Virus record (IMG/VR): IMGVR_UViG_3300024339_000480
Location: 1 to 50,702 of that record
DNA from: a virus
Strand: one strand, 5' to 3'
Length of the DNA stretch: 50,702 nucleotides
Below are positions 1-40,000 of this stretch, in pieces. The position numbers and the translations under genes were made by a program. Each line of letters starts with the position of its first letter. Within the stretch, counting starts at the first letter, position 1. A model generated the notes under the pieces. The model had not been told where the DNA came from, did no database searches, and saw only the letters and a program-made list of their open reading frames with translations.

Positions 1-1465
1 ACCATGCTGGCACAGACCAAAATGTTTTCTTTGTGATCCAAGGTTTAACCCCACGATATATAATATAAATCCACAATGAGAACCCACCCAATAATAACAT
101 CTGGAAGAATCTACCTAATTCCATAAACTCCCAACCCTGCGAACCGAACCAGTATGCCGCCCATCCCGTCATGTATCCTGCTTGACTGAGATAAACACCA
201 ACGATTCCCCCAACACCAACGGTTACGCAAATACCAAATAACAGATTAATTAAGAATTCTTGATGTTTTGGTACTTCGGCTAATCTCGGCAAAAAGAAAA
301 TAGTATATCCTACCCAAGCAACAAAGAACCAATAAATCTGTAATAAGGTATGATAACTTCGTAATATATTAAATGGGAGGATATTTGCTAGTTTATGTGC
401 AAACGGATTTGCAAAATCCATAGCACCTAATATACCAGCCAATACCTGCAACCCAAACATAACAATAGACAATGCAAAGAATTTGTAAGTCGCAAGTTGA
501 GTAGGTCTTACATAACCACTCTCCAAATCAGCAGTGGTTAATGTGGCACCTTTAGCACCCATATCAAATGGCCCACCTGGCATTGTTCTCATTTGCCCAT
601 AAACATACAATACAAGCATAATTCCAATCCACAAAATAAAGATTGATAAGAAACTCCACATCATTAACGATGGCGGTGGTTCGTTGCCAGCTTGTGGATC
701 ATATGGCCAATTAGATGTATAACTGAAATCATCGCCTGGCCGATCTGCGGCAGATGTCCACGAACCCCAATAAAAGAATGCCGCTAAGTTATTTAAATCT
801 GTTTTATCTGTAATATACCCGATTGGGTGAAATGCTTCTGGATGGTTAGCATTGGTAAACATTTGATCATAATACCAGCGAACATACTCAATGCCATATA
901 TTTGAGCATCATTTAAAACAACACGATTTCTTTCTTCGGTGTATGTGTTATTATGCAACTCTTTCTTAACTCTGGTTTCAATTGCACCCTCGTCATATTC
1001 CGAAATATCAAATTTCCATTTCCGAAGTTGGTCATCCTGTGTAACTGATCCAGGTTTTAATTGTTCCGCATAATATCCTTTCATAGCCACTGCCATCGTA
1101 TGCAGAGTTTCTGCTGTGAAATCTGGACCACGTTCAGCTCCATCACCCCAGAATGACCCATAGTTCATTAATCCCCTGAGATGAAATATTTCCTGCCCCT
1201 TCATTATTTCAGCTTCTGTGATAATTACTTCTCCATTGCTTGCTACATAGGTCGGCACGGGTGGCGCACCCATGTAAGTTGCCCCACCCATATATACTAA
1301 CCCCAAAATAGAAATAATTGACACAATCCAAAAATGTGCGAACCAATATTTCTTATTCAATAACAAGGCTGAAACACTATCTTTAAATGATAAAACAGAT
1401 CGTACTGTTTCTGAATCATCCTTAGTTGTGATTATATATTCACCATTTTTAAACTCTGTTGTCAT
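1..1465 (-). CDS. norB: qNOR-family nitric oxide reductase or nitric oxide dismutase, N-terminal part (cut by window edge)
   Basis: An open frame runs off the left edge; 488 residues are visible. Residues 41-60 form a first membrane helix. Residues 90-122 carry the qNOR periplasmic signature (GLMNYG, WGDGAERGPDFTAE, LH). Residues 268-290 form a further helix. Residues 364-390 (LPFNILRSYHTLLQIYWFF) carry the heme-b histidine, H372, and 439-488 match the qNOR segment WFGSQGWEFMELGRF. The family reduces 2 NO to N2O with quinol electrons in the cytoplasmic membrane; the related Nod enzymes are thought to dismutate NO to N2 and O2. The quinol-site His/Glu expected about 21 and 17 residues before the heme-b His are F351 and F355 here, which favours a Nod-like or otherwise non-quinol enzyme. 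The FeB ligands lie outside the window. AAGGAAG sits just before the chosen ATG. The symbol marks the family; it may be nod. Confidence 0.5.
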   Translation of the reverse strand, partial: MTTEFKNGEYIITTKDDSETVRSVLSFKDSVSALLLNKKYWFAHFWIVSIISILGLVYMGGATYMGAPPVPTYVASNGEVIITEAEIMKGQEIFHLRGLMNYGSFWGDGAERGPDFTAETLHTMAVAMKGYYAEQLKPGSVTQDDQLRKWKFDISEYDEGAIETRVKKELHNNTYTEERNRVVLNDAQIYGIEYVRWYYDQMFTNANHPEAFHPIGYITDKTDLNNLAAFFYWGSWTSAADRPGDDFSYTSNWPYDPQAGNEPPPSLMMWSFLSIFILWIGIMLVLYVYGQMRTMPGGPFDMGAKGATLTTADLESGYVRPTQLATYKFFALSIVMFGLQVLAGILGAMDFANPFAHKLANILPFNILRSYHTLLQIYWFFVAWVGYTIFFLPRLAEVPKHQEFLINLLFGICVTVGVGGIVGVYLSQAGYMTGWAAYWFGSQGWEFMELGRFFQMLLLGGFSLWIYIIYRGVKPWITKKTFWSVPAW

Positions 1466-1626
1466 TTTTTCTTCCTTTATTTTAAAAATATCTATAATTT
1501 TATTAATGATCTTGGATACCCAACTAACAAGATATAAGAATCCCATCAATGATATGATTAGCACAATTAAACTAAGTAGATGTATCATTGCTGTTTTGCT
1601 GTTTTGCTGTTTTACTACTTATGCTA
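1466..1626 (-). other. Leader of the NO-reductase gene with an in-frame upstream start
   Basis: These 161 bases separate the 47-aa ORF from the oxidase gene. An ATG at 1588 is in frame with the oxidase start at 1465 with no stop between, so a 41-residue N-terminal extension is possible. It contains a very hydrophobic stretch (LLSLIVLIISLMGFLYLV) able to span the membrane. No ribosome binding site precedes 1588, while a good one precedes 1465, so I prefer the short form. Dual starts or a small leader peptide remain possible. Confidence 0.5.
1590..1613. repeat. Tandem 8-bp repeat (GCTGTTTT x3)
   Basis: Three perfect copies of GCTGTTTT lie directly upstream of the alternative ATG at 1588. On the minus strand the unit reads AAAACAGC. 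It may be simple slippage or may space the upstream start from its signals; no function is visible. Confidence 0.5.
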
Positions 1627-1770
1627 CTAATTATCTATACTATTAATATCCAACGATGCATTAGTTGATGAGCATTTATCCGATTTGATAATTTGTTCTG
1701 CTAACCACCTCATTACCGGAACTGTCATTGAATTGCTAATTGCGAATAGTGCAGTATATATTTTAATCAT
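1627..1770 (-). CDS. Small 47-aa hydrophobic protein
   Basis: The ATG at 1770 overlaps the stop of the preceding SPFH C-terminal frame as TAATG, an arrangement typical of translational coupling in this genome. The product starts MIKIYTALFAISNSMTVPVM, is moderately hydrophobic over its first ~30 residues, and ends in a polar tail (DKCSSTNASLDINSIDN). I do not recognise a family. Position between the SPFH gene and the NO-reductase gene, plus the hydrophobic N-terminus, suggests a small membrane-associated accessory. It has no independent ribosome binding site, so translation would depend on the upstream frame. It could be a chance ORF. Confidence 0.5.
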   Translation of the reverse strand: MIKIYTALFAISNSMTVPVMRWLAEQIIKSDKCSSTNASLDINSIDN

Positions 1771-2012
1771 TATTTTACAGCAGTATTGTTCATATTCCAA
1801 AGAATACTCTGGCCTTCGCCCATCACAGTGGTTGGTACTTCGCCTTTCCATCTTTTTACTTGTTCATACTCAATTACCTGTGGATTAGCCGCAATCGCAT
1901 CAGCCATTGCCTTAATCTTACCGGCATTAGCAATACCAATCATACGGATTGCCTCAGCTTCTGCTTTTGCTTCGACTTCTTTTTGATAAGCAACACCATC
2001 AGCGGCTTTCAT
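1770..2012 (-). CDS. SPFH/prohibitin-like protein, C-terminal fragment in a shifted frame
   Basis: This 80-residue frame continues the SPFH protein encoded at 2009-2740. It begins KAADGVAYQKEVEAKAEAEA, the coiled-coil continuation expected after the QRLEAQRQVNKA that ends the upstream frame, and contains IANAGKIKAMADAIAANPQVIEYEQV, typical of HflC/prohibitin-type tails. Its ATG (2012) overlaps the upstream TGA (ATGA), a -1 frame relation. It could be made as a separate coupled polypeptide, by frameshifting, or be the remnant of a recent one-base indel. No classic slippery heptamer is visible at the junction. Family assignment is firm; the status of the split is not. Confidence 0.5.
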   Translation of the reverse strand: MKAADGVAYQKEVEAKAEAEAIRMIGIANAGKIKAMADAIAANPQVIEYEQVKRWKGEVPTTVMGEGQSILWNMNNTAVK

Positions 2013-2740
2013 ACGGCTTTGTTAACCTGTCGCTGTGCTTCCAATCGTTGGCGTTCAAGTTTATGTTCTTCTTTAACTGCTTCTTGTAAAGCTACCTGTT
2101 TGGATTCAATCGCATTCGTATATGTTTTAGGAAACTGAATATTCTCCAATTGAATACTATTGATAACGATTGGGTATGGTGCCATTGAGGTTACAATAGC
2201 ATCTTGGATCTTATTCATCACCACATTACGATTCTCGATGATCTCTTCTGCTGTATGCTTAGAGATAGCATCCTTAGATCCACTCTTAATTTTAGGGTCT
2301 AGGATACGAGATTTAAATTGATCGATGCCTCCATACTGCTTAAAGATATCAATAGCTTCAACACGATTAACTGTCCAGTTCACAGAGACACTAGCATGAC
2401 TAGGCATCTGTTCAGCAGTAGCAACCGGAATATTCTCCTCTAGGTTCTTCCTAGTACGAACTTCCATCACCTCAACTGAATCTGCTAGTGGTATTTTAAA
2501 ATGAAGACCTGGTTCTACTTGGTATTTTGCCTCACTAAATCGTTTCACCACTCCTACGTGTCCTTCTTCTACTGTATACATTGACCCAACTAACACAACA
2601 ATGGCAAGTATTCCTAACATTATATCTCGTGCCATTGCATTTAGTCGTAATTCTCTTTTAATAATATCATCACCATATCTATCTTTTCCTTCGGTAATTG
2701 TTGTGTATCTCGTTTTCATTTCTTTTGTATCTTTCATCAT
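2009..2740 (-). CDS. SPFH/band-7 (HflC/prohibitin-like) membrane protein, N-terminal part
   Basis: 243 residues. A single membrane helix lies near residues 38-57 (ARDIMLGILAIVVLVGSMYT), followed by the band-7 core: EEGHVGVVKRF, then EPGLHFKIPLADSVEVMEVRT, and a C-terminal coiled coil (VKEEHKLERQRLEAQRQVNKA). The family forms oligomeric membrane scaffolds that influence FtsH-type proteolysis and membrane domains. It ends in a TGA overlapped by the ATG of the C-terminal fragment, so the usual coiled-coil tail is in another frame. Its start overlaps the stop of the 61-aa gene upstream (ATGATG after GGAGAAGT, a good ribosome site). Being beside the NO-reductase gene it may help insert or stabilise that oxidase; this is inference. 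Confidence 0.5.
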   Translation of the reverse strand: MMKDTKEMKTRYTTITEGKDRYGDDIIKRELRLNAMARDIMLGILAIVVLVGSMYTVEEGHVGVVKRFSEAKYQVEPGLHFKIPLADSVEVMEVRTRKNLEENIPVATAEQMPSHASVSVNWTVNRVEAIDIFKQYGGIDQFKSRILDPKIKSGSKDAISKHTAEEIIENRNVVMNKIQDAIVTSMAPYPIVINSIQLENIQFPKTYTNAIESKQVALQEAVKEEHKLERQRLEAQRQVNKAV

Positions 2741-2922
2741 ACTTCTCCTATTCTTTTAGTTTTGTGTTTACATTCATTAATCTCTATAATAAACGACAGT
2801 TTACTAGCATATTCACGCTCATTGGTCAATAGTTGATCAATACTATATCCACATCGCACACCAAGACCAGCACCGATTAATGATACTACAAATTCACAAT
2901 CATTGCAATAGGAACTTAACAT
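2737..2922 (-). CDS. Small 61-aa Cys-containing protein
   Basis: The start is preceded by AGAGGAGTATAAGAAATG, a strong ribosome binding site, and the stop overlaps the start of the SPFH gene, so it is a genuine operon member. The N-terminus reads MLSSYCNDCEFVVSLIGAGL, with a CxxC pair (C6, C9) and two more Cys (C24, C52). The middle is weakly hydrophobic and the C-terminus is basic (ECKHKTKRIGEV). I do not recognise the family. The Cys set might bind a metal, but the spacing matches no standard finger. Confidence 0.5.
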   Translation of the reverse strand: MLSSYCNDCEFVVSLIGAGLGVRCGYSIDQLLTNEREYASKLSFIIEINECKHKTKRIGEV

Positions 2923-2925
2923 TTC

Positions 2926-3654
2926 TTATACTCCTCTTATTTCATTGTTAATATCGATAACAGTTTGTAGCAAATGTAAATCTCTATCATGCACCAATGC
3001 ATTAACATCTTTAGGAAAACACATACCGCCATATCCTAAGTTACCATCCGGACCAGGCACTTGCATATGTGAGTTACCTATCCGCTGATCTAAGTTAACA
3101 CAATCAATAATCTCATCATACAATTGCTGGTTACCAATATGCCTATGAATTTCATTAAAAAAGGTAACCTTAGTAGCTAAAAACGTATTAATTACATATT
3201 TTGCATAGGATGCCGCTTCTATTGATACTCTTTTAATAATATCCATCTGGATACCTGCATTAATTAATATCGTAATCCATTCTTGTGTGTCACTTCCTGC
3301 AAATAAAGCAAATTCTTGTGTTTTAAAATCAGCATCAGAACTTACTTCTCGTAGGAATTCAGGATAATATGTAAAAGGGCATTCTTCATACAACTTAACC
3401 AATACATTGGGATCTACTGTACTTTTTACTAGTAATGGTTTTGATATTCTTTTAATATAATATTCGACTAATGAAGTATTACAAGACCCATTCTTATTTG
3501 CGGGTGTAGGAACACACAAAATATACCTATCACAATCATCTAGCGATCCATTCATTCCTTTCGGTGGGTCAATGATTAAAATATCGTATGTATCTTTTAG
3601 AGCATACTCAATCGCATGTCCTAGAACACCATATCCAATAATACCGATATTCAT
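2926..3654 (-). CDS. UDP-glucose 6-dehydrogenase-like protein, short form
   Basis: 242 residues. It has an N-terminal Rossmann fold with GYGVLGHA (7-14), the middle-domain signature YYPEFLRE (97-103), a helix with AKYVINTFLATKVTFFNE including K152, and the catalytic loop GGMCFPKD with Cys212. The family oxidises UDP-glucose twice to UDP-glucuronate using NAD. The usual C-terminal UDP-sugar binding domain is absent: the protein stops soon after the catalytic Cys, against about 400 residues for cellular enzymes. It may therefore act as a dimer, use another substrate, or be a phage-minimised form. It sits with an SGNH hydrolase, suggesting nucleotide-sugar or surface-glycan work. Family call is firm; substrate is not. 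Confidence 0.5.
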   Translation of the reverse strand: MNIGIIGYGVLGHAIEYALKDTYDILIIDPPKGMNGSLDDCDRYILCVPTPANKNGSCNTSLVEYYIKRISKPLLVKSTVDPNVLVKLYEECPFTYYPEFLREVSSDADFKTQEFALFAGSDTQEWITILINAGIQMDIIKRVSIEAASYAKYVINTFLATKVTFFNEIHRHIGNQQLYDEIIDCVNLDQRIGNSHMQVPGPDGNLGYGGMCFPKDVNALVHDRDLHLLQTVIDINNEIRGV

Positions 3655-3697
3655 TTAGTATAGTTCCAATTAAAAAATTCTATGAACCTCGTAACTT

Positions 3698-3720
3698 AAT
3701 GAGGGCTTACAGTCCTCATT
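3698..3720 (-). terminator. Hairpin at the end of the SGNH gene, weak terminator
   Basis: AATGAGG and CCTCATT (7 bp, 9-base loop) overlap the stop codon of the SGNH gene. On the minus strand a TTTTTT run follows only about 25 bases later, so termination would be weak; mRNA protection is an alternative. Confidence 0.5.
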
Positions 3721-4510
3721 GTATATACGGTTTAATTCTATCAAAATACATTTTAGCTACAGATACATGCCAATCCGGACCTGGATGTTGCCCATCACGT
3801 GCATGGGTTTTTGCACGTATAAAGTGCTCATATAAAATATTACCATCGATCTCTACAATATCTTTGCCTATATGATTTTTTTCTAACTTATCCTCTGCTG
3901 AAGTTATTAACGGTATATTTCTTGTTTTTAACATCTCATTTACAAGCACATAATCTTTTAAAAAGTTATAATTAGTTAACCACGTACCCGATACAAATAG
4001 CGGAGGATAATCTTCGTCGCCGACAAATCTTTGTGTGAACTCATCACCTGGTTCACTAGGTGCTTCTATTCTTGAAGTTGGGGGCCAATATATTACAACA
4101 ATATCAGGTTTTAATATATCTATAGTTTTATATATACTTCTAGAAACATAACTGGTACTAGCACCACTAACCGACACATTATATATACTCACACTTTGAT
4201 TGGTGTCATTTTTAATCATTTGCTTTAAAACAAAAGGCCAAGATTCTTCTTGAGTTACACCTACTCCAACAGTATGACTACATCCACATGTTAATATATT
4301 AATATCAGACCGCTCACTGAAACTATCTGAACGAAAACCATACTCATTAAATGTATATGTTATATCTTTTTTGTATATTGCATCTTCGGGTTTATCAGTA
4401 TCTATCCACTCTACAGTAATATTTGGTGGATACATTATGCTATAAAATAACTCTTGTTTCCATGCTGTTTTTAATTTTGTTCTATATAATGGTTCTGTCT
4501 GTTTCCACAT
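3716..4510 (-). CDS. SGNH/GDSL-type hydrolase
   Basis: 264 residues. The block-I motif is GCSHTVGVG with nucleophile Ser78, where the usual Asp of GDSL is Cys. It is followed by NVSVSGASTS (block II Gly), then a strand WPPTSR, and a C-terminal DGQHPGPDWH that supplies the Asp-His of the triad. SGNH enzymes remove acyl groups from sugars or lipids; in phages they often deacetylate host or virion polysaccharide. There is no signal peptide, so it acts in the cytoplasm or within a virion. It lies between the homing endonuclease and the UDP-glucose dehydrogenase-like gene in one minus-strand run. The substrate cannot be told from sequence. Confidence 0.5.
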   Translation of the reverse strand: MWKQTEPLYRTKLKTAWKQELFYSIMYPPNITVEWIDTDKPEDAIYKKDITYTFNEYGFRSDSFSERSDINILTCGCSHTVGVGVTQEESWPFVLKQMIKNDTNQSVSIYNVSVSGASTSYVSRSIYKTIDILKPDIVVIYWPPTSRIEAPSEPGDEFTQRFVGDEDYPPLFVSGTWLTNYNFLKDYVLVNEMLKTRNIPLITSAEDKLEKNHIGKDIVEIDGNILYEHFIRAKTHARDGQHPGPDWHVSVAKMYFDRIKPYIQ

Positions 4511-4518
4511 GAAGGTAT

Positions 4519-6132
4519 TTAACTACTGCCTAGAACCCATCTTTTTTTACCACAATCCCATAATTTTAATAATCCCATCTCTCTTGTTATTTGACGTTCG
4601 GTTTTATTAGAATCATATCCCTTCTCTACTAACTTGTGTTTAGCAAAATTATAACGATGATACATTTTGTCATCGTTTCTTTTTATGTACCAGTAACTTG
4701 GCTTAATATCAGTCTCTAATACAAATCCCAATGCTTTATACAAATTACCATTACTCCACTCATTGTTCGAGTATGAGATAATTTTTGTTTTTTTATAATT
4801 TTTCATAAAATGTGTTAATAATTTACTAGCACCTCCCTGAATTCTATTAGAACTAGAATATCTTACTAATTCTGTAGTATCTTCGTTTTTTCCAATGCCA
4901 GTTCTACTTAGACTAAAAGTCATTAAAGCAACTAGATCTTCGTTGTATCTTAAACCAACTTGATACTGCGAAGTTGTGTATCCTTGTATATGGTTTTTAT
5001 CTAAAAATTCTCTGTGTTCTTTAATAGAAATATTAGCATCTATTGTACACTTTCGAGCATATATAGAATTCGATACTAGTCCTAGTTTATTTTTTATCGT
5101 TTGTTTAAGTAGTTCCTTTTTCCTATGCCAATGCGTAGAAAAAATAGTAAGCAATTGTATTTTTTTGTCGTCACAAGCTTTATATTTTTGGTAATGGTAA
5201 TCTTTAGTTATATGTTCAACATCTTCGTGATGCCAGTAAACCCCACAATACTCTATAGCTAAATTATAATCAGGGAGATAAATATCTATTTCACGAGGAC
5301 GATTAACATATTCTCCATTTACATATTTTTCTACTGTAATGATTTTTCTTGAATTTTGAACTACGTTAGTAATTTCTAATGATTTTATAAAATTAACAAT
5401 CTCTTGTTCTTCTACAGATTTATACTTCTCACGTAACCCATGAATATATAAATGTCTGTATACTGTTTGTGGATGAACATTAAGATATGTCGCAAGATCC
5501 TCTATTACAGGATACTTTTTGTAATGGTCTTTTAGTAAATTTTTATCCATTAAAATAGCCATCTTTTTATCTGGGAATCTTGTCTCCCAATACTCTAATG
5601 GATGATTTTTAGCATATGTTTCTTTAATCTTACTGGAGTTATTATAATTTTTATTACCGTATTTTTCAAACTTGGTGCGATGATTTTTGTTTATAGCATC
5701 ACGAACTTTATCTTTGTTGTTATAAAATTCTTCGTGTTTTTTTAATGCGTTTTGTGTTTGTCCATTATTAGTAACTCCATATTTTTTTAGTGTAGTTTTA
5801 ACTCTTTTGGAATTAATACTAGCTTTCTTTTCTTGACTATAATTTTGTTTAGATTTAGAAACTTTAATAGATACTGATTTTTTAGCACATTGGCATTTAT
5901 TAGCACGATTACAAAATACATACCCAGTACCAAAATCCTTAAATTTTTTCTTATTCCCTGTAGGACATATTCCATTATGTTGATAAACCGCACTGTAAAT
6001 CATCTCTGCGTATGATTTGGACTCAACTAACGTATTACTTAATACCCATTGATTTAATTCTATACTATTTTTAACTAACCGAGAATAATGCTTAGGTTTT
6101 TCTTTTACTAATGTTAATATTTTTTGTTCCAT
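4519..6132 (-). CDS. Free-standing homing endonuclease, Vsr-like (EDxHD type)
   Basis: 537 residues. The N-terminal region has a Cys cluster (C56, C74, C80, C82) that may bind zinc. Basic repeated segments of NUMOD type follow (LKKYGVTNNGQTQNALKK, FEKYGNKNYNNSSKIK), then a helix-turn-helix at about 206-232 (EDLATYLNVHPQTVYRHL). The nuclease core at about 279-335 has EIDIYLPDYNLAIEYCGVYWH, then KDYHYQKYKAC, matching the Vsr-like PD-(D/E)xK nuclease fold of phage homing enzymes. A C-terminal domain of about 190 residues follows. Such enzymes cut phage DNA and spread their own gene. It lies just past the capsid terminator, a common landing place for mobile genes, and has its own late promoter. 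Confidence 0.5.
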   Translation of the reverse strand: MEQKILTLVKEKPKHYSRLVKNSIELNQWVLSNTLVESKSYAEMIYSAVYQHNGICPTGNKKKFKDFGTGYVFCNRANKCQCAKKSVSIKVSKSKQNYSQEKKASINSKRVKTTLKKYGVTNNGQTQNALKKHEEFYNNKDKVRDAINKNHRTKFEKYGNKNYNNSSKIKETYAKNHPLEYWETRFPDKKMAILMDKNLLKDHYKKYPVIEDLATYLNVHPQTVYRHLYIHGLREKYKSVEEQEIVNFIKSLEITNVVQNSRKIITVEKYVNGEYVNRPREIDIYLPDYNLAIEYCGVYWHHEDVEHITKDYHYQKYKACDDKKIQLLTIFSTHWHRKKELLKQTIKNKLGLVSNSIYARKCTIDANISIKEHREFLDKNHIQGYTTSQYQVGLRYNEDLVALMTFSLSRTGIGKNEDTTELVRYSSSNRIQGGASKLLTHFMKNYKKTKIISYSNNEWSNGNLYKALGFVLETDIKPSYWYIKRNDDKMYHRYNFAKHKLVEKGYDSNKTERQITREMGLLKLWDCGKKRWVLGSS

Positions 6133-6158: not shown

Positions 6159-6166
6159 TATTTATA
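6159..6166 (-). promoter_or_regulatory. T4-type late promoter (TATAAATA)
   Basis: Minus-strand TATAAATA, an exact match to the T4 late consensus, lies 27 bases before the endonuclease ATG at 6132. The spacing matches the other late elements in this window. It would drive the accessory block down to the NO-reductase gene. Confidence 0.5.
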
Positions 6167-6261: not shown

Positions 6262-7452
6262 TTACTGGAATGTAAGATTTGCTACTGCGATCTCGCCAAC
6301 ATAATCACCTGCATTACCAAATGAACTAGCAGTATTTGTTAATTCTATGTACCCATAACGAGTCATAAAGCTAACTACTGGTTCGAATGTAGATGGATCA
6401 AGTACTGTTCCTGAACTCATTAATGGAATATATGGGCAGTAGAACGCTGGTGCGTCTGCTTCGCTTGAACCCTTATAACCAACAAGTACTGGAGTGGTAT
6501 CACCAGCATATGAATCAACATATACTTTCATAGCACTATTCAATGTACCAACCATTTTAGTGTTAGTTGGAGCTTCGAATGTACCTTCGGTAGTACGTGC
6601 AAATGCTGAAGTTGTAGCTGACTGTAGGATTGTTAGTGACTGTGGACTAACAACACACCAGTTAGCGGCACCACGTCTAGTACGTTGTGCAACTAGGTTA
6701 GCAGTTCTGTTAATAAGAACAGCTAGAGCGGCATGCTCATCACCTACAAATGTAGCTGTACCTGATACAGTAGCCTGATCAAATGTAAATTCAGTGCTTG
6801 CTAATGAACGTAGAGATAGTAAAATCTCTTGATCAATCTCAGCAGTAATTTCTTGCGCCAGAGCGGCCATAATTTCTGCTTCAACATCAAGTCCATGCAT
6901 AGAATTAGCATCTTGTGCGGCTTCGAAAGTCCAACGTGCTTGCAACTTACGAGTTTTTGCTTCAACAGCTTGTTTCAATAGTTGAACACTGATGTTACGT
7001 CCGCCATCACCTTCGAGTGCGGATGTAGGAGCACCTAGATAATCAGCTTGAGCACCACCACTGCCAGCAGAATATGCTTGAGCAATTTTGAATGGGCTTA
7101 ACGCTTCTTCGCCTGCTGAAGTGCTAGTTGCGGCGGCAGAAGAATCTGCCATTGTACTACCATAACGTACACGCAATGTATGAATTTGACTAACTGGTCC
7201 TTGCATTGGTTGTACACCAACAAGTTCGTTAGCAATAACAGTAGGCATTACTCGTCTAATGACTGGTAAAATTACACGGTTTAACGATGCAATATTACCT
7301 GCGCCAGTAGCACCAACTGATGCGGCCTCTGCTAAGTAACTCTTGGTATTCTCCAATATTACACTCATTGATGAGCGTTTTGTTCCTTGTAAGCCTTCAA
7401 GTAGGGCATCTTTTGTCTCGCTCCAACGGCTTTCTAATAGTTCTTGTGACAT
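6262..7452 (-). CDS. 23: Major capsid protein, T4 gp23 family
   Basis: 396 residues, shorter than T4 gp23 (521) but with the same plan. The N-terminal region ends in SYLAEAASVGAT, where the T4 prohead protease motif (L-A-E then A) predicts cleavage after E42. It is followed by LNRVILPVIRRVMPTVIANELVGVQPM, the conserved T4-type capsid segment, and QIHTLRVRYG. The C-terminal part (FYCPYIPLMSSGTVLDPSTF, MTRYGYIELTN) also matches gp23. It forms the hexameric shell lattice. AGGAGAAAATAAATG gives a strong ribosome site. It follows scaffold gp22 and is followed by the terminator at 6213, which fits the high expression expected of a capsid gene. Confidence 0.5.
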   Translation of the reverse strand: MSQELLESRWSETKDALLEGLQGTKRSSMSVILENTKSYLAEAASVGATGAGNIASLNRVILPVIRRVMPTVIANELVGVQPMQGPVSQIHTLRVRYGSTMADSSAAATSTSAGEEALSPFKIAQAYSAGSGGAQADYLGAPTSALEGDGGRNISVQLLKQAVEAKTRKLQARWTFEAAQDANSMHGLDVEAEIMAALAQEITAEIDQEILLSLRSLASTEFTFDQATVSGTATFVGDEHAALAVLINRTANLVAQRTRRGAANWCVVSPQSLTILQSATTSAFARTTEGTFEAPTNTKMVGTLNSAMKVYVDSYAGDTTPVLVGYKGSSEADAPAFYCPYIPLMSSGTVLDPSTFEPVVSFMTRYGYIELTNTASSFGNAGDYVGEIAVANLTFQ

Positions 7453-11029: not shown

Positions 11030-13216
11030 TTACACCGTTCCTGGTGCTCCTGGTGCTGGGCTAACTGGTTTAGGCAATGGACCCATTTCGCCTTCTTCAC
11101 CGCCCATTTCTTCCATTCCAGCAAACTCATCGCTCATTGCAATATCACCTTCCATGTCACCTGGCATTATACCAACTCCACGAAGATCACCGCCTGCAGG
11201 TGAAATTTTCTCTTCAGCTGCATTCTCCTCTTTCCAGAGCTTCTCGTTTTCTTGCATCTCTTCTTCTGATAGACCAAGATAACGTTGTAACAGAAAACGC
11301 TTACTTAAATACGGGAATGCTTCTAACCCTGTAAATGAGCTGATTCTAGTTGCATCCAATTCACTCTCTCTATAACTAGCGAAGTTCTGCGGAGGATTAA
11401 ATTGTAAATCAAACAACCCAGCATCAATATTGAATCCACGGAACGCTAAAAACATCTTGAATTCTTTATTTAACGCTGGTATAATTGTATTTTGTAATCT
11501 TTTACAATACTCATTAAATCTATTCTCTTGAATAAGTGCTGTGCCTACTCGGCCATCGCTTATCGGATTCGAATTTTCATCAGGCCCTGTTGGTAAGTAA
11601 CTACTTGGCACACGCAAACCACGGGCTAATTTATTATTAAAATACTTTAAGTCATCTATTTGACCTAAATTTTCACCACCCGGTAAGGTATCTACTTTAG
11701 AACCACGCCCCTCACTCGTTTGAGGGAAAAAATAGTCTTCGTTTGTAGAGTTTTTAATAAAAATCCCAGACTCAATCGCAAACGTATGATGCTCATTATC
11801 TACGTTTAAACACCCTGTATTCATTATTTCTGCAAGATACTCTATCTTTACAACTTTATGATTATAAACTAACTCAGACGTCCTAAACTCTTCCTCATCC
11901 TTAATACCTTTACTATTCTTTCCTAACGATATTAAACTTTCATCTGTAATTAAGTCTTTTGCTTCTACGAACCTTTTACCTAGTACTGGGATTTTATGAT
12001 CTGGTGTGCATGTTAATGTTTCTCCATTATCTAAATGTATTTTTAGAACTTCTGCGTTTTTGCGTGTTTCGCCAGCCCATTTTATTTTACCAGGTACAAC
12101 TTTCCCAGATGCAAGATCTGCACTGTAAACCCAATTCTCTTTGTTATTTTTGTATTCAGCAATTATCTCATTTAATTTTAATGTTCTGCCATCCAATAAA
12201 GGAATTTTTGTTTTTAAGTCAATACATAACGGGTTATATGTAGCATCCAACATATTCTGCCCGCCACCTGCCTGTGTTGGAATCCTACGTTGATGAATTT
12301 CATTCTTAACTCGCTCAACAAAACTCATTGCCATATGACTTGGCATATTACCTACATCAATATAAAATACTCTACGCTCTGGCGCACGTTGAATTCTGTA
12401 GATTAAAACAGCATCCTCTAATAGTTCTTTTTGCTTATATACTTTAAATATATTTTCAAGCACACTTTGTCCGAAAGGCCATATAAAATCCAATCCTTCG
12501 GTTAAACTTAAATGTACAATATGTTTAGCATCTACTGTTGTTTCTTTTATGTTTTGACTAAATCGACCAGTTGTTTGATTTTGTGCCTGTGTAGATGACA
12601 TAGAATTAGTAGCATTATTATATCCACCGCCTGTTGGGGTATATACCATATCCTCTGTAGTTTTTTGCGCCACAGATAAATTCTCAAAGTTTGGGTTAAT
12701 ATCTAATATGACATATTGTTCCGGTGCTTTGCCGTCACTCTCATTTACGATAACCCTAGATACTTTGCTCATATCGATCCAGAACATTTCAAATGTTTCT
12801 GGATCTCGCAAAAAGACTTGATCTCCATACTTAATTGTATTACGGAATAATTTAAAAATTCTCTTATCAAACTGGTTTATCTTAACCCACTGATGTAATT
12901 GTTCTTTGAGAATTTTAATTTCGTTATCTGTTGGTTTTTCCTTAAAATCAAAGTTAAATGCAGTATTATTCTGTTTACTAATTTGAGTGCAAAACTCGGC
13001 TATAATATCCAGACAGGCATTAATTTCACTGTCCGCATCCATAGACTCGTATTGATTATAACGTTCAATTCTATTTGGATGCCCTGAATAAACTTCAGGT
13101 AATTTGCTTTGATAATTTCTAAATGCAAAATTACCACCTTTGCTGGAAGTAGCTCCGCTAACAGGGCTTAATTTGCCTGTTGTATCCACAGTTTTAAAGT
13201 ATTTTTTCCAAGACAT
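11030..13216 (-). CDS. 20: Portal protein, T4 gp20 family, interrupted by a mini-intein
   Basis: 728 residues, of which 569 remain after removal of the intein at residues 331-489. Extein features match gp20: MSWKKYFKTVD at the start, ESMDADSEINACLDIIAEFC (57-76), KYGDQVFLRDPE, LIYRIQRAPERRVFYIDVGNMP, then ATYNPL joined to STNEDYFFPQ, and LPGGENLGQIDDLKYF. The dodecameric portal nucleates prohead assembly and is the DNA gate. The C-terminus is Glu/Gly/Met/Pro-rich. The intein splits the strictly conserved NPL-STNEDYFF segment, so splicing must occur for a working portal. No ribosome site is seen; an ATAAATA element lies just upstream. Confidence 0.5.
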   Translation of the reverse strand: MSWKKYFKTVDTTGKLSPVSGATSSKGGNFAFRNYQSKLPEVYSGHPNRIERYNQYESMDADSEINACLDIIAEFCTQISKQNNTAFNFDFKEKPTDNEIKILKEQLHQWVKINQFDKRIFKLFRNTIKYGDQVFLRDPETFEMFWIDMSKVSRVIVNESDGKAPEQYVILDINPNFENLSVAQKTTEDMVYTPTGGGYNNATNSMSSTQAQNQTTGRFSQNIKETTVDAKHIVHLSLTEGLDFIWPFGQSVLENIFKVYKQKELLEDAVLIYRIQRAPERRVFYIDVGNMPSHMAMSFVERVKNEIHQRRIPTQAGGGQNMLDATYNPLCIDLKTKIPLLDGRTLKLNEIIAEYKNNKENWVYSADLASGKVVPGKIKWAGETRKNAEVLKIHLDNGETLTCTPDHKIPVLGKRFVEAKDLITDESLISLGKNSKGIKDEEEFRTSELVYNHKVVKIEYLAEIMNTGCLNVDNEHHTFAIESGIFIKNSTNEDYFFPQTSEGRGSKVDTLPGGENLGQIDDLKYFNNKLARGLRVPSSYLPTGPDENSNPISDGRVGTALIQENRFNEYCKRLQNTIIPALNKEFKMFLAFRGFNIDAGLFDLQFNPPQNFASYRESELDATRISSFTGLEAFPYLSKRFLLQRYLGLSEEEMQENEKLWKEENAAEEKISPAGGDLRGVGIMPGDMEGDIAMSDEFAGMEEMGGEEGEMGPLPKPVSPAPGAPGTV
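11750..12226 (-). mobile_element. Mini-intein (159 aa) inside the portal gene
   Basis: The insert starts at Cys331 (CIDLKTKIPLLDG, block A). It carries block B GETLTCTPDHKIPV with the Thr-x-x-His motif, and block F VDNEHHTFAIESGIFIKN, ending in Asn489 followed by the Ser490 nucleophile of the C-extein. Between blocks B and F there are only about 60 residues, too few for a LAGLIDADG or HNH homing endonuclease, so this is a splicing-only element. The penultimate residue is Lys instead of the usual His, which can slow Asn cyclisation. Both junctions were checked codon by codon (TGT at 12226-12224, AAC at 11752-11750). Confidence 0.5.
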
Positions 13217-17499: not shown

Positions 17500-18528
17500 T
17501 TACCAAGTTGAAATATACTTTGTATTGAGTAATTTCTGTCTAATACACTTTGTTGAACATTCTAAGCTATTGAACTTTAAAAATTCATTTTTCCAGAATT
17601 TATTACTTAAAATATCAACAAATTTTTGTTTATTTATATCTAAAATATCTTTGGCTAAATCCATCCATCTTGCGTTGTGTGGGTAATTATTTGCTACCCA
17701 ACAGCAAGGATAAAATTCACCTTGGCTATTTAAGAATACACCTTTATTACCAATATAACATAATGCAGGATATTCGTTACTGTTATATAGTTTAATAGCC
17801 CTCTCTTTGAAAATTTTCTTTAACTCATTGCCTGGACGTACTTTATTAGATAATTTCGTATCTATACGTTCGAATCTACATCCATTGGGGATATAGTTTT
17901 TATTGGATGGTTCTAATGTATCATCTACACCATAAGACGGGTATTTGCTACCAAATTTAGTACTTAATGTTAACTGAAAATTATCAAAATGTAAAGACGT
18001 AGCTAAATCTTTTATTTTATCTAAATTATCTTCGTTGAATTTAAACACAATAGCGGCCCAGTTAGTATATGTTGTGCTATTATATTTTTTAAACTCAGCA
18101 ATGCCGTCTGTTATAGAATTCCAATCTGAGTTTATACGATACATCTCGTTGCTTTGTTGATCCCATCCGTCGATGCTCCAATGTATCTCGTCGCATTTAG
18201 ATAATATTAATGCTAGATCTTTCCACCATTTTTTTGGTTTGTGACTACCGTTTGTAATAAGAACGAGTTCTAACTTCGGATTAATTTCTTTTATCCAATG
18301 GATAATTTTGATTAACTCTTTGCAGTATATTGGATCACCGTTGTTCCCACAAAAAGTAATTTTTTTGATATCCTCAATAACTTCTTTGCCTATATTATTA
18401 ACAAAGAACTGTAATGAAAGTTGCTTATTTAAGTTCGCTAAACTAGTTTCAGCACGAGGGCACCTTGGACATTTTAGTGTACAAACACTACTTGGTTCGA
18501 TGTGCCAATGGTCTAATGCTAGTTTCAT
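17500..18528 (-). CDS. Radical SAM protein with SPASM-like C-terminus
   Basis: 342 residues. The radical SAM cluster motif CTLKCPRC gives C16, C20 and C23; CGNNGDPIY matches the SAM-binding GGEP-like region, and ITNGS and HWSIDG are the next core strands. The C-terminal third has Cys residues (CRFERID, CYIGNKG, CCWVANN, CSTKCIRQ) consistent with an auxiliary iron-sulfur cluster of SPASM type. Such enzymes modify peptides, cofactors or nucleotides; the substrate here is unknown. It is the last gene of the gp55-gp47-gp46 run, four bases after the gp46 stop, so it is probably early or middle expressed. No small peptide substrate is seen beside it. Confidence 0.5.
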   Translation of the reverse strand: MKLALDHWHIEPSSVCTLKCPRCPRAETSLANLNKQLSLQFFVNNIGKEVIEDIKKITFCGNNGDPIYCKELIKIIHWIKEINPKLELVLITNGSHKPKKWWKDLALILSKCDEIHWSIDGWDQQSNEMYRINSDWNSITDGIAEFKKYNSTTYTNWAAIVFKFNEDNLDKIKDLATSLHFDNFQLTLSTKFGSKYPSYGVDDTLEPSNKNYIPNGCRFERIDTKLSNKVRPGNELKKIFKERAIKLYNSNEYPALCYIGNKGVFLNSQGEFYPCCWVANNYPHNARWMDLAKDILDINKQKFVDILSNKFWKNEFLKFNSLECSTKCIRQKLLNTKYISTW

Positions 18529-22874: not shown

Positions 22875-23753
22875 TTACGGGATATTAAGTTGTTTGAATC
22901 TATTTTTTCTTGTTTTTTCAATTTCTGCCTCGTTTGCTAACTGTCTAGTCCAACTTGGGTCTAAACCGTGTTGCTCTAATATGTCATCTCTGATATTTTG
23001 CATCTTCTTTTCTGTTAATAGTATTCTAGTAAAACAATTAGTTATTACAGCAGTATAATAAGCAAATGGATTCTGACTTTTCATCTCGTTGAATTGTAAT
23101 CCAACTTGAACTAATTGCACTAGTGCTTGCCCTCTCATTTCGTCGTTGTATGTATATCCTCGCCAATTGCTACGAGTACCATAACGCTCACATAGCTTCA
23201 TAAACATTTTAGCTAATTCAGCTGATATCTCACCGAGATCTTTATTAAATTCACCTGTATCGAAATCACCCTTCCAATGACTCTTACCGACAATAAATGG
23301 TTGTTTTTTTCCATTGACTCGATAATGAAAGAAAGGTGGAAAATTGCATTTAGTGGGTATCATTATTACATTAGGATCTTCTGATATTTCAACTTCTTCT
23401 TGTATGTTACTAAATTCATCTTTAAATACATCTTTAACCTTTTTTGGCTTTATTTTCTTTTTTGGTTTTTTTTGAATTCTAGGTACGTGTTCATCAGTCA
23501 TAACTCTAAATACTACATCTGTATTAGTAATCGTTTTTAAATCTACGATTTCTCCAGTTTCTTTTGATAATCTAGTTGCTCTAGCTTCACGAGCTTGTTT
23601 TAGTGTCCTAACGTTAATCTCACTTACATCCTCTATGATTAAGTCAAACATATAATCCTTCTCTCGATTAATATATGTACAATATGATGTCTTGCTTAGA
23701 TGAATTTGTTTAAGTATGTCTTTGTTGTTTAAGTAATTAACTTTTCTTGTCAT
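22875..23753 (-). CDS. 55: Late-transcription sigma factor, T4 gp55
   Basis: 292 residues, longer than T4 gp55 (185) because of an N-terminal extension with a basic run (KKPKKKIKPKKVKDV near 98-112). The core GYTYNDEMRGQALVQLVQVG, then FNEMKSQNPFAYYTAVITN and FTRILLTEKKMQNIRDD, is the gp55 version of sigma region 2 (core binding and -10 melting). It recognises TATAAATA-type late elements with the sliding clamp and gp33. It has its own sigma-70-type promoter and is transcribed divergently from the baseplate operon, which begins with a late promoter it would serve. Confidence 0.5.
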   Translation of the reverse strand: MTRKVNYLNNKDILKQIHLSKTSYCTYINREKDYMFDLIIEDVSEINVRTLKQAREARATRLSKETGEIVDLKTITNTDVVFRVMTDEHVPRIQKKPKKKIKPKKVKDVFKDEFSNIQEEVEISEDPNVIMIPTKCNFPPFFHYRVNGKKQPFIVGKSHWKGDFDTGEFNKDLGEISAELAKMFMKLCERYGTRSNWRGYTYNDEMRGQALVQLVQVGLQFNEMKSQNPFAYYTAVITNCFTRILLTEKKMQNIRDDILEQHGLDPSWTRQLANEAEIEKTRKNRFKQLNIP

Positions 23754-34076: not shown

Positions 34077-37000
34077 ATGGCGCGATTTCGTTCGGTAGAT
34101 CTGCTACCTGAGATTTTTAAAACTAGCACTAATAAAAAATTCCTAAGTGCTACTCTTGATCAATTAGTTCAAGAACCAAAAGTTAAAAAAACACAAGGCT
34201 TTGTTGGCAGAAAGTTCGGTGCTGGTGTTGATCCTAGCGATGATTATGTATTAGAACCAACTACTATTCGTTCAAATTATCAGTTTGAACCTAGTGTTGT
34301 GTTTGAGCGTGATAATCCAAATGATGTTATTACATATCCTGGCCTAATTGATGCTGTAAACGTTAATGGCGCAAATACAGCACGTCACGATTTATTGTTC
34401 AATAGTGAGATATATAGTTGGGACCCGTTAATTGATTTCGATAAGTTCATTAACTACAGTCAATACCACTGGCTACCAAATGGTCCCGATAGTGTAGATG
34501 TTAGTTCATCTGATATTGTGTTAACGGATAATTTTACTGTAACACAGGATTTCCCTGTCAATGCTTATAATTTAAGTGGGTCAGATGGAGTCAATCCAAC
34601 ACTTACCTTAGTTCGCGGGGGGTCGTATACATTTAATGTTATTCAACCTAGTAATTTTTATATTCAAATAGAGCCTGGTACAGATGGTTTACTAAATTCT
34701 TCTCCTAACATAAACACTCGTTCTGTGCTTGGTGTTGTTAACAACGGCGAAGACAACGGAACAGTTACTTTTAATGTACCAGATGTCGATGCTCAACAAT
34801 TTTACTATGATTTAACGGATATTGAATCTGTAGATTTGGCTACCACTGCACGATTTGATAGCATTCACGGTAAGTATATTAGTGAATTAGTTGATATTGA
34901 CGGTATTACAGATTTAAACAATAGAACTATTGTATTTTTGAATGACACTCCGGGTGATTCGGCTGATTTAGGATGGCAATATCTTGATCTGTTTGATAAT
35001 GAGACAATACCATTCGATTCTGTTAATTTCGACAACACAGTTTTTATTCCTCTGCAAGCAGATAGATACAGTATCTACAGAATAATATATGTGTTGGATG
35101 CAGAAGGTGATCCTTATATAACATTAAATAAAATTCAATCTATCGATAATTTAGAAAAGTTTACAATTGGATTTGGTGATCAGTATGGTAATATTGGGTT
35201 TTATAAGAACTCGACTGGGTTTTTTGAACAAATTCCGTTATTAACCGCAGTACTGAATACGTTGTATTACCAGGACGATACTAATCCATTAATGGTTGGT
35301 GTTATTAACATAGTAGATGAGGCTGAAGCAACTGTATTAAACATAAGTGATATTATCGGTCAGATAAACTACACTAGTGTTAATGATGTAAAGTTCACCA
35401 ATGGTCTAAAAGTAATCTTTAGAGGCAATGTTAACCCAGCATCATTTCAGAACAACGAATATTATGTTGAATGCGTAGGCGAAGGCATTCAGTTAATCCC
35501 GGTAACTAGTTTAGTTACTCCAGAGACATACGTTAATAATCTATCAGAGTCATGGGACAGATTACCATGGGACAGCGATTTATTTGGAGGTGCATTAAAT
35601 GCACCGTTAGATTTAGATTATCTTACAATTAGTAGAGCAAGTCTAGACTTAAATGCTTGGTCTAGAAGCAATAGATGGATACATATTGATGTTATTGAAC
35701 AAACAGCCGAATACAATAATACTACTGCTGTAATTGACAACGAAGTTAAAGCAAAACGACCTATTATTGAGTTTAAGAAAGGACTAAGGTTATTTGATCA
35801 TGGAACACTAAGTAAAGACCCAGTTGATATTATAGATTTTACTGAATTAGATGCATTTAGCAATATCAACGGTATGTTACCTGGTACAGTTCCGCTAATA
35901 GATGGTTATACAATACAAGAAGGCGCAAGAATTATTTTCGCGGCTGATACAGACAATAACGTAAGAAATAAAATATACGAAGTTCGTTTTGAGGATTTTG
36001 ATGGCATAGGTGTAGATCAAATACATTTAGTCCCATCTAGCGACGCCGACGTTGAAATAGATCATGTTGTTGTTATTTTATTTGGCACAACATTACAAGG
36101 CAAAATGTTCAGATACACTGGAACAGAATGGGATGAAGCACAGCAAAAAACAGCAGTGAACCAAGCTCCGTTATTTGATGTGTTTGATACATCCAGTGAT
36201 AGTTTGGCTAGTATAGCTTACACAAATTCTACATTTAGTGGAACTCCGTTGTTTAGCTATCAAGTAGGTGCTGGCGTAAATGACACAGTTTTAGATTTTC
36301 CATTAACATTCCAGAATATCAATAACATAGGTGATATTGTATTCGACAATAATTTGTACAAGGACTCGTTTACATTTACGCTGGTTAATGACGAGTCAGG
36401 GTTAGAGGTAGAGACAACCGCAAAAATAGAGGCTGGGTTCCCGCGTGTATATACATCAAGAACAGATTTTTCAGATAAGCTAGGTTGGACAACCTTTGCA
36501 GAAGATGATGCAATTCATCAGATATTTACTTTTGTGTACGATGCTAATCCACTAGTACTAGATGTTGCGCCAAGGATAGATATCAACATATCAGCAATAA
36601 AAGTGTTCATAGAGAACACTTTTATACTTCCATCCGAATATACTATAGTTGCTGACAATCCCTCGACGACAATTACTTTTACTAGCACAGTAGATATAGG
36701 CAGTAACATTGAAGTTAAAATTATCAGTGAACAGAATAGCCAAGTTGGTTATTATGATATTCCATATAATTTACAGAATAACATTTTTAATGAGAACTCA
36801 GAGACACTAACACTAGGATCAATTAGAAACCATTACACTAGTATTGCACAGAATGTAACTAATTTAGAGGGTGTTATAAACGGATCTAATAATACAAGAG
36901 ATATTGGGTTCTTATCGTCGTTTGGTAATGCAATTATACAACATAGTGCTCCAGTTGCTCCTATGGCTACATTTTTACGCAACGAAGAATATGATTTCTT

Positions 37001-40000
37001 TAAGTCGGTTAAATTTGTATCCGAGCAGTACGAGAAGTACAAAAATCAAGTATTAGATTATGTAGCTAGGAATGATGTATTTGGATTAACAGCTAATATA
37101 ATATTAGATAATGCTATTAAAACCATAACCCACAGTAAATCGCCTACTAGTGCGTTCTACTTGAGTGATATGGTACCTTCTGGCACAGATTTTACGTCTA
37201 TGACATATACAGTTACAGCAATAAGCATAAATTCATTTGCTACAGCTAATGTATATGATTTTACGACTGCTAACCATGCGAGTTTATTAGTATACTTAAA
37301 TGGTGATTTATTGACTGTTGGTATGGATTATACAGTAGCAACAGATGGACCAAGAATAGAAGTATTAGTAACATTAGACGAAGATGATACAGTAGAAATT
37401 AGAGAATATACTAGCACGGTTGGTTCATACATGCCGAGTACTCCCACTAAGTTAGGATTGTATCCAAAATACCTTCCCAAAAAATATGTAGATAGTTCAT
37501 ACATCAACAATACCGAAGTAATTCAAGGCCACGATGGAAGTATTACAGTAGGGTTTGGCGACATCAGAGATGATGTGTTGTTAGAATTAGAAACAAGAAT
37601 TTACAATAACATCAAAGTTAATTCAGTGTTGCCAATAGAACCTGGGGATATAATCCCAGGCAAGTTCCGTAATACATCATATTCTGATATTGATATCACA
37701 AACATACTTAGTACTAGTTTTCTAAGTTGGGTTGGATGGCATAGATTAGATTACAGAACACAAGATTATGATTCTACTAACGAGTTCACTTTTAACTATA
37801 GCACAGCAGGTAGTAGTATAGATAATAGTGTTTTAAAAGGTCATTGGAGAGGGATTTATAAACATTACTTCGATACAGATACTCCACACCTTACACCGTG
37901 GGAGATGCTCGGTCTTACAATTATGCCAACTTGGTGGGAAGATGAATACGGACCTGCCCCTTATACTAGTGGTAATTTAGTCTTGTGGGATGATCTCGAA
38001 GCAGGAATAATCAAAGAACCGGGGAATGAGCACACAGATACTCGTTATGTTCGACCTGGGTTAACAACAATTTTACCTGTTAATAGTTTAGGCGAATTAG
38101 TAAGCCCATTCCAATCTGTAGTAAAGGACTACAATACAGTAGACTTTATGAAGAGCTGGGTAGTAGGCGACGTTGCTCCAGTGGAATCATCTTGGAGACG
38201 TAGCAGTGATTGGCCGTTTGTTGTACAGCGGTTATACGCATTAACCAAACCAGCACAGTTCTTTGCACTATCAGTTGATAGAGATCGTTACGCATTTGAC
38301 ACAACATTACAGCAATTCTTATATGATGGGCGTACTAGGTTAGACACAAGAACAATAGAAATAAGCGATACAGACTCAAAACACAGTTATACAATTTGGA
38401 TTCGTAATTATAACAAGTACCATGGGTTTAATCAACTCACGACTCTAGTGGATGAGTTAGCTAACTTAAATGTAAAACTGTGCTATAGGATGGCATCATT
38501 TACTGATAAGAAATATTTAAAAGTATTTTCTGATAACATTAGCCCTGATAGTGATAAGCCAGGGCTGATAATACCAGACGAAAGCTATCAGTTATTATTG
38601 TATAAGAATCAAATATTTAATGAAATACAGTATTCATCTGTTATTGTACAAAGAACAAGTGATGGGTACGCTGTACACGGCAATAGTATCACAGATAGAA
38701 TATTCAATATATTAAATAGCATTCCAAATCAAAATTTTGATACCTTGACTGTTGGTACTGATGCATTTAGAATCCCCAAAGATTTTACTAATATAATAAC
38801 AGTAGTCCCATATGGGTATGTGTTTACATCAGTTAATGGTGTTGTCGACTTCTTAGTTAGTTACGGTAGGTTCTTAGAAGTACAAGGGTTTATATTTGAC
38901 CGCGAAAACGGTATTGTTAATTGGGTGCAGATGGCACAAGAGTTTATAGCGTGGGCTAATCAAAATTGGATTACAGGTAGTCTAATTAATTTGAACCCAT
39001 CTGCAACAACATTAGAGTTTGATAAAGAATTATCGATCGTTGACAGCATTACACAAGACCAAGCATCATTGCCGTTGGATCAAAATATGCACCCACTAAC
39101 AAGCGACGATTATGTTATTGATAGGCTAGATAACAGTTTTAAAATCACAATGTTGAATGATAAAACAGTTAGCTACCTAAAAGTTAAATTAACTAGCTTC
39201 GAGCACTTGTTAATGTTAGATAACACGAGTATATTTAACGACTTAATCTACAATCCTACATTAGGGTTAAGACAGAACAGAGTTAGAATTAATGGATTAA
39301 CTACATTTGAATGGAATGGTCAAGTAGATGCACAAGGGTTTATATTAAGTCAAACAGATACAGAAGAGTGGAAAAGCAATCGAGAATATAAGAAAGGCAA
39401 TGTTGTTGAATATAAAAATCAACTATGGAGCGCATTAGTTAAGATCGAACCAGCAGAAGAGTTCAATATTAGTACGTGGCAACTGCTAGATTCTAATAGT
39501 ATATCTGACGGTTTATTACCTAATATAGCTAATAAAGCACAACAGTTTACTAATTATTACGACAAAAAAGTTGCTAACTTAGAGACTGATGGTGATCTGT
39601 TAGGGTTTGGGCTAACAGGGTTTAGACAGAGATCTTATCTCGACGCATTAAACTTAGACGATACTAGTCAATATAATGTATACAGTAAGTTAATCCGTGA
39701 AAAAGGTACAAAAGGCAATGTTGATTTATTTAGAAGTATTAAGTTAGATAAACAAGAATACGAATATAATACATTTGAAAATTGGGCTGTTAGAGAGGCT
39801 ATCTATGGAGCTAGTGATAATAACGCATTTATCGATCTATCTCTAAGTTTGACCAACTTACAATCCAATCCGCATGTAATTGAGATTGGGACAACTAGCG
39901 AATTTGTTGGCATTGACCAGTTTATAAACTTAACTGATGTTTACAGACAAAGTGAAGTACATAGTACTAAGAATATTTTACCAATAACTCAACCTAATTT

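Follow-up and report, generated by a model that had tools for sequence, protein, structure and literature searches.

The DNA analysed, referred to here as the window, is the entire record IMGVR_UViG_3300024339_000480, which comprises 50,702 bases. Its hallmark genes encode a T4-type portal protein (gp20), a head protease, the major capsid protein gp23, baseplate proteins, an SbcC/D-like nuclease and a late sigma factor, the last of these located at positions 22875-23753. The gp23 product (6262..7452, minus strand) is 62-65% identical to that of PA5oct, Vibrio phage 2.275.O and similar phages with genomes of 285-470 kb, and the portal, protease and gp23 genes follow one another in this order in the window as well as in PA5oct and Vibrio 2.275. 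The window is likely to represent a fragment of the genome of a PA5oct-related T4-like jumbo phage from an uncultured community. The portal gene (11030..13216, minus strand) carries an intein-like insert of ~158 residues, which begins with Cys after NPL, ends with IKN before Ser and matches the Pfam family Intein_splicing (1.4e-8), while the PA5oct portal protein aligns on both sides of it. A radical SAM-like gene (phrog_21308; 17500-18528, minus strand) adjoins sbcC, and a single frame of 3,795 residues (34077-45464, plus strand) is found in the baseplate/tail region. Neither tRNA genes nor Rfam matches were detected in the window.

The gene block that follows gp23

The gp23 gene belongs to a same-strand block in which it is followed by a homing endonuclease, an unnamed gene, a UDP-glucose dehydrogenase-like gene, a small frame, a Band_7 gene and, as the last gene seen, a gene resembling nod. 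The homing endonuclease gene (4519..6132, minus strand) corresponds in its position behind gp23 to the gene for the Hef-like homing endonuclease in PA5oct, and the unannotated gene beyond it (3716..4510, minus strand) has homologues on three related gp23-bearing viral contigs. The short UDP-glucose dehydrogenase-like gene (2926..3654, minus strand) is assigned to phrog_9148, while the phage-type Band_7/SPFH (HflC-like) gene (1770..2740, minus strand), which lies directly upstream of the nod-like gene, is 47.5% identical to an Alteromonas phage homologue. The Band_7 gene is present as two frames, split at approximately position 2010 by an ATGA overlap. In Alteromonas phage AD45-P1 the homologue is a single frame that can be aligned with each of the two pieces; the split therefore reflects a frameshift, programmed frameshifting or faulty assembly.

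The motif [A/C]TAAATA was observed 21-36 nt upstream of seven gene starts (e.g., at 6159-6166 and 15707), as compared to 0.17 expected by rotation, and probably serves this phage as its late promoter. One such late-promoter-like motif, TATAAATA (6159..6166, minus strand), is located 33-34 nt before the start of the homing endonuclease gene, and transcription of the block, down to the nod-like gene, could start from it. Since this motif precedes the homing endonuclease gene and a terminator-like site is absent from positions 1-4000, read-through into the nod-like gene is plausible.

The nod-like gene itself (2..1465, minus strand) is interrupted where the record ends on the left, such that only the N-terminal half of its product, i.e., 488 residues, is encoded. 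The minus-strand frame is open from position 1588 to the record edge, corresponding to 529 residues from the first ATG (1588) or 488 residues from the ATG at 1465. The start at 1465, as proposed in the preliminary description of this DNA, is preferred because it is the only one that is preceded by a Shine-Dalgarno-like sequence (AAGGAAG, 1471..1477, minus strand); the start at 1588, which would add a helix, is less likely. The encoded protein matches the Pfam family PF22085 NorB_cytochrome_c-like (1e-45), in keeping with a quinol-dependent NO reductase (qNOR)-like fold with an N-terminal cytochrome c-like domain, and also matches the solved qNORs in the PDB (Geobacillus 3ayf, 1.4e-66). An AlphaFold model of the protein (mean pLDDT of 80) returned 3ayf (E 5.8e-22) and 8bgw (3.4e-20) in Foldseek comparisons with qNOR structures, while no viral structure resembling the model was found in BFVD. 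These Pfam, PDB and model matches, together with the phage hallmark genes, confirm the earlier proposal of a qNOR-type N-terminal half inside a phage genome.

Quinol-site residues and clade placement

Residues of the quinol site are numbered according to Geobacillus 3ayf, the numbering having been verified against the published positions His328, Glu332, Phe336, His508, Glu512, His559, His560 and Asp746 (PMC10286720, PMC3413370). His328 and Glu332, along with replacement of His560 by Asn, are the residues that discriminate between qNOR and Nod (PMC10286720, PMC3413370). In the window protein, the quinol-site loop segment LAGILGAMDFANPFAHK (392..442, minus strand) is three residues shorter than that of qNOR: His328 aligns with M349, while the position of Glu332 falls within the three-residue deletion, plain counting at +4 giving N353. 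Both members of the His328/Glu332 pair that typifies canonical qNORs are therefore replaced, as in Nod. The loss of this pair had been anticipated, although the residues then named, F351 and F355, were wrong. The conserved low-spin heme-b ligand His372 (codon at 350..352, minus strand; Geobacillus 355 in the alignment) is retained in all usable alignment rows.

A scan of genome contigs retrieved proteins from gammaproteobacterial MAGs with 71-73% identity to the window protein, followed by proteins with 52-58% and then by a broad group with 33-44% identity, and the set of relatives was widened with members from further genomes. In an IQ-TREE phylogeny of 50 rows, based on the N-terminal half alone, the window protein falls within a clade, here called clade A, with support of 100/100, and is sister to the gammaproteobacterial proteins of 71-73% identity (98/93). 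Canonical qNORs form a separate clade (100/100) in which the window protein is not included, and clade A stands apart from both the qNOR and the qNOR-related groups. Quinol-site residues and tree together rule out a canonical qNOR. The Nods of Methylomirabilis oxyfera and strain HdN1 are not among the rows of this tree, and clade A is called Nod on the basis of its signature residues.

All 16 of the bacterial members of clade A, which are full-length, exhibit N560, Q581 and G746 in the site table. His328 is lost throughout the clade, being replaced by Met, Thr, Ala or Glu, and the short loop is nearly always present. The group with 33-44% identity to the window protein (clade B) also displays N560 and Q581, with Gly or Ala at 746, while mostly keeping His328; canonical qNORs keep His328, usually have an acidic residue at 332, and possess HH, E581 and D746 where the sequence could be read that far. 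A Glu-to-Gln change near the catalytic centre and a His-to-Asn ligand change have been reported for putative Nods (PMC3413370), and an H328T/E332R pattern for the NC10 and aquifer nod clusters (PMC10286720). Thr is found at 328 in four clade A members (L009, L175, L176 and L183), and L009 reads T-x-x-x-R, i.e., the published nod pattern. In a Flavobacteriales MAG (Tobar13m), a clade A nod-like gene lies beside a second qNOR-fold gene with 36% identity to the window protein (L020, 2378-3751 and 5001-6383).

Judged from these alignments, the phage protein very probably belongs to this Nod-signature clade. Since the full-length members of clade A all carry the Nod signature, the C-terminal half of the phage protein, which contains the FeB ligands and positions 581 and 746 past the record end, is expected to carry it as well. 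An intact C-terminus of qNOR type, which had been named beforehand as a ground for rejection, was not seen. The earlier suggestion of a possible phage Nod thus stands as regards a phage gene that has lost the quinol pair and that falls in a clade with the Nod signature, but not as regards the residues it named. A viral Nod-like NorB had been published before (PMC8115048).

Origin of the gene and its proposed function

The nod-like gene lies on a contig bearing viral hallmark genes, with phage-type neighbours and codon usage and not in a host island, as is required of a viral AMG. Its location at the very edge of the contig would nevertheless be compatible with an assembly artefact in which a bacterial nod fragment was fused to phage DNA. 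This would agree with the lack of a second viral copy: neither such a copy nor the missing C-terminal half was found in INPHARED by tblastn with the window half and a full-length relative, or in IMG/VR using single-protein, qNOR, N-half and C-half peptide patterns, which divergent copies may escape. Similarly, no exact match to the left end of the record was found, and tblastn detected no nod-like gene in 80 gp23-bearing viral loci. However, with the codon usage of the remaining window genes as reference, the nod-like gene obtains -1.049 per codon and falls within the span of -0.84 to -1.07 covered by those genes; on the same scale, values of -1.20 to -1.35 result for the bacterial orthologues L006-L008. 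Moreover, the adjoining Band_7 and UDP-glucose dehydrogenase genes are of phage type, no tested gene of the window apart from the nod-like one has a match in the bacterial nod loci, and the DNA of the nearest bacterium is merely ~70% (~69.5%) identical. An artefact of this kind is considered highly improbable, and the codon usage and phage-type neighbours give no sign of the join to bacterial DNA that had been named as a potential objection. Marginally less improbable, yet still very unlikely, is a non-functional passenger, i.e., a gene that was truncated or only recently acquired and sits in the hypervariable region behind gp23. The homing endonuclease and the split Band_7 gene in the same region are compatible with such a passenger, as is the fact that just half of the gene is seen. 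Set against this, the 488 codons contain no stop, so that the frame is not broken as had earlier been envisaged; the protein matches 134 of 136 clade-invariant columns, its two deviations being as few as those of most bacterial clade members, and all 44 superfamily-conserved columns; pN/pS is 0.21-0.24 at saturated dS; and codon usage is adapted to the phage. Selection on the gene looks purifying, and it is because of this, the phage-like codon usage and the phage-type upstream neighbours that a chimera or a decaying passenger appears unlikely.

In the explanation that we favour overall, a nod-type gene would have been acquired by a PA5oct-related T4-like jumbo myovirus from a gammaproteobacterium or a close relative of that donor. 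The gene, which closes the head-gene block and lies within the variable stretch that follows gp23, would probably be transcribed within a late unit, and its product would insert into the inner membrane of the infected cell and bind NO at the heme b3/non-heme metal site. With the quinol site lost, the enzyme would act in a quinol-free manner, most likely by converting 2 NO to N2 + O2. A denitrifying host living at low oxygen would thereby be rid of toxic NO and provided with O2. The chances that this account of a donor-derived, quinol-free and most likely NO-dismutating phage enzyme is correct are about evenly balanced; for the phage gene, we infer the C-terminal signature residues as well as expression, activity and benefit. 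Nod itself is termed putative in the papers cited here, and dismutation to N2 and O2 is unproven for the family.

A serious rival, and the main one, is that the Nod-clade phage enzyme reduces or detoxifies NO, forming N2O with electrons from some source other than quinol bound at the canonical site. The benefit would then lie in clearing NO from a denitrifying host while the infection proceeds, and O2 would not be produced. We assign this reading a considerable probability that nonetheless falls short of an even chance. It draws on the argument that the ODZ qnorB-like genes encode N2O-producing NO reductases (PMC5723336), on the activity of a viral NorB having been left undecided between NO reduction and dismutation (PMC8115048), and on the availability of a fate for N2O, nosZ being carried by 14 of the 16 nod-bearing genomes. 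It is weakened by the loss of both quinol-site residues in clade A, by the separation of clade A from clade B, which mostly keeps His328, and by the presence of a canonical cNorB in at least one donor relative. This relative, with 71% identity, also carries NirS, and the cytochrome d1 (NirS-type) family was matched in 13 of the 16 nod-bearing genomes, a few of them weakly. Because of the nosZ genes in 14 of 16 genomes and of cNorB and NirS in the 71% relative, it is not evident that the donors are oxygenic denitrifiers. The argument that the donors possess no NO reductase besides the nod-like enzyme is weakened by the same cNorB, and a relative with 73% identity has two further heme-copper proteins to which no specific name could be assigned. 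In genome G001, two heme-copper oxidase-family proteins without a good specific NCBIfam match (L194 and L203) share a contig with NirS-type genes, and may represent non-canonical NO reductases. A Pfam search for AMO, indicative of a methanotroph donor, gave no match in five nod genomes, although the control likewise gave none.

That the phage encodes a working NO dismutase, which would release O2 inside infected cells in low-oxygen water, feed O2-dependent host or phage enzymes as well as respiration, and detoxify NO, is a tentative proposal with well under an even chance. If active, the enzyme could enable infected cells in oxygen-poor water to convert NO to N2 and O2 or, failing that, to dispose of NO, and viruses would thereby share in nitrogen loss and hidden oxygen production. 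The favoured origin, if true, would mean that bacteria and jumbo phages exchange nod-type genes. A further viral case with a testable quinol site and a clade placement also makes it less likely that the earlier single report was an accident, and the phage gene is a concrete candidate for expression.

Comparison with known systems

Pseudomonas phage PA5oct (Arenbergviridae) and Vibrio phage 2.275.O share with the window the order of the head genes and a gp23 of 63-65% identity, and PA5oct also possesses a homing endonuclease directly after gp23, yet both phages are without the nod-like gene. Canonical qNORs, represented by those of Geobacillus stearothermophilus (3ayf) and Alcaligenes (8bgw), resemble the window protein in fold, in the N-terminal cytochrome c-like domain and in the heme-b His, but are ~34% or less identical to it and possess H328 and E332, along with HH at 559/560, E581 and D746. 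The qnorB-like, or qNOR-related, proteins of clade B, which derive mostly from Bacteroidota, are like clade A in having N560, Q581 and Gly or Ala at 746, while differing from the window protein in that they mostly have His328 and a full-length loop and form a separate clade (89/92).

The closest counterparts are the gammaproteobacterial proteins L006, L007, L008 and L169, which form the sister group of the window protein (71-73% identity) and share its quinol-site loop with Met at 328 and the three-residue deletion. Unlike the phage gene, these are chromosomal and encode products of 782-798 residues, with NirS-type and NosZ genes in the same genomes; no phage genes were found alongside these four nod-like genes. 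The putative Nods of M. oxyfera (DAMO_2434/2437) and HdN1 (PMC3413370) likewise combine the qNOR fold with a lost quinol site, and have in common with the relatives of the window protein the His-to-Asn change at 560 and the Glu-to-Gln change near the catalytic centre. These Nods are host-encoded, and their link to the phage protein consists of the signature residues and of the published T/R pattern in clade members.

Among viruses, norB has been described on a Caudoviricetes virus from a hydrothermal vent (PMC12043954), and a Nod-like NorB gene followed by nirK was reported in 2020 on the T4-like myovirus scaffold St16_omz_317 from anoxic ETSP waters (PMC8115048). As in the window, the latter is a T4-like myovirus encoding a qNOR-fold protein with a Nod-type quinol site, and its published description adds a Nod-type active site. 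The two differ in that norB is followed by nirK on the St16_omz_317 scaffold, which also carries gp43 and gp44, whereas the gene in the window is cut, lies behind Band_7 near gp23 and has its nearest kin in gammaproteobacterial MAGs (71-73%). The best hits of the St16_omz_317 protein, at 57-62%, are about as similar to it as the wider clade A is to the window protein, and a kinship between the two viral proteins, compared by description only, is possible. The phage gene described here is not the first viral Nod-like case but a further member, carried by a PA5oct-related jumbo phage.
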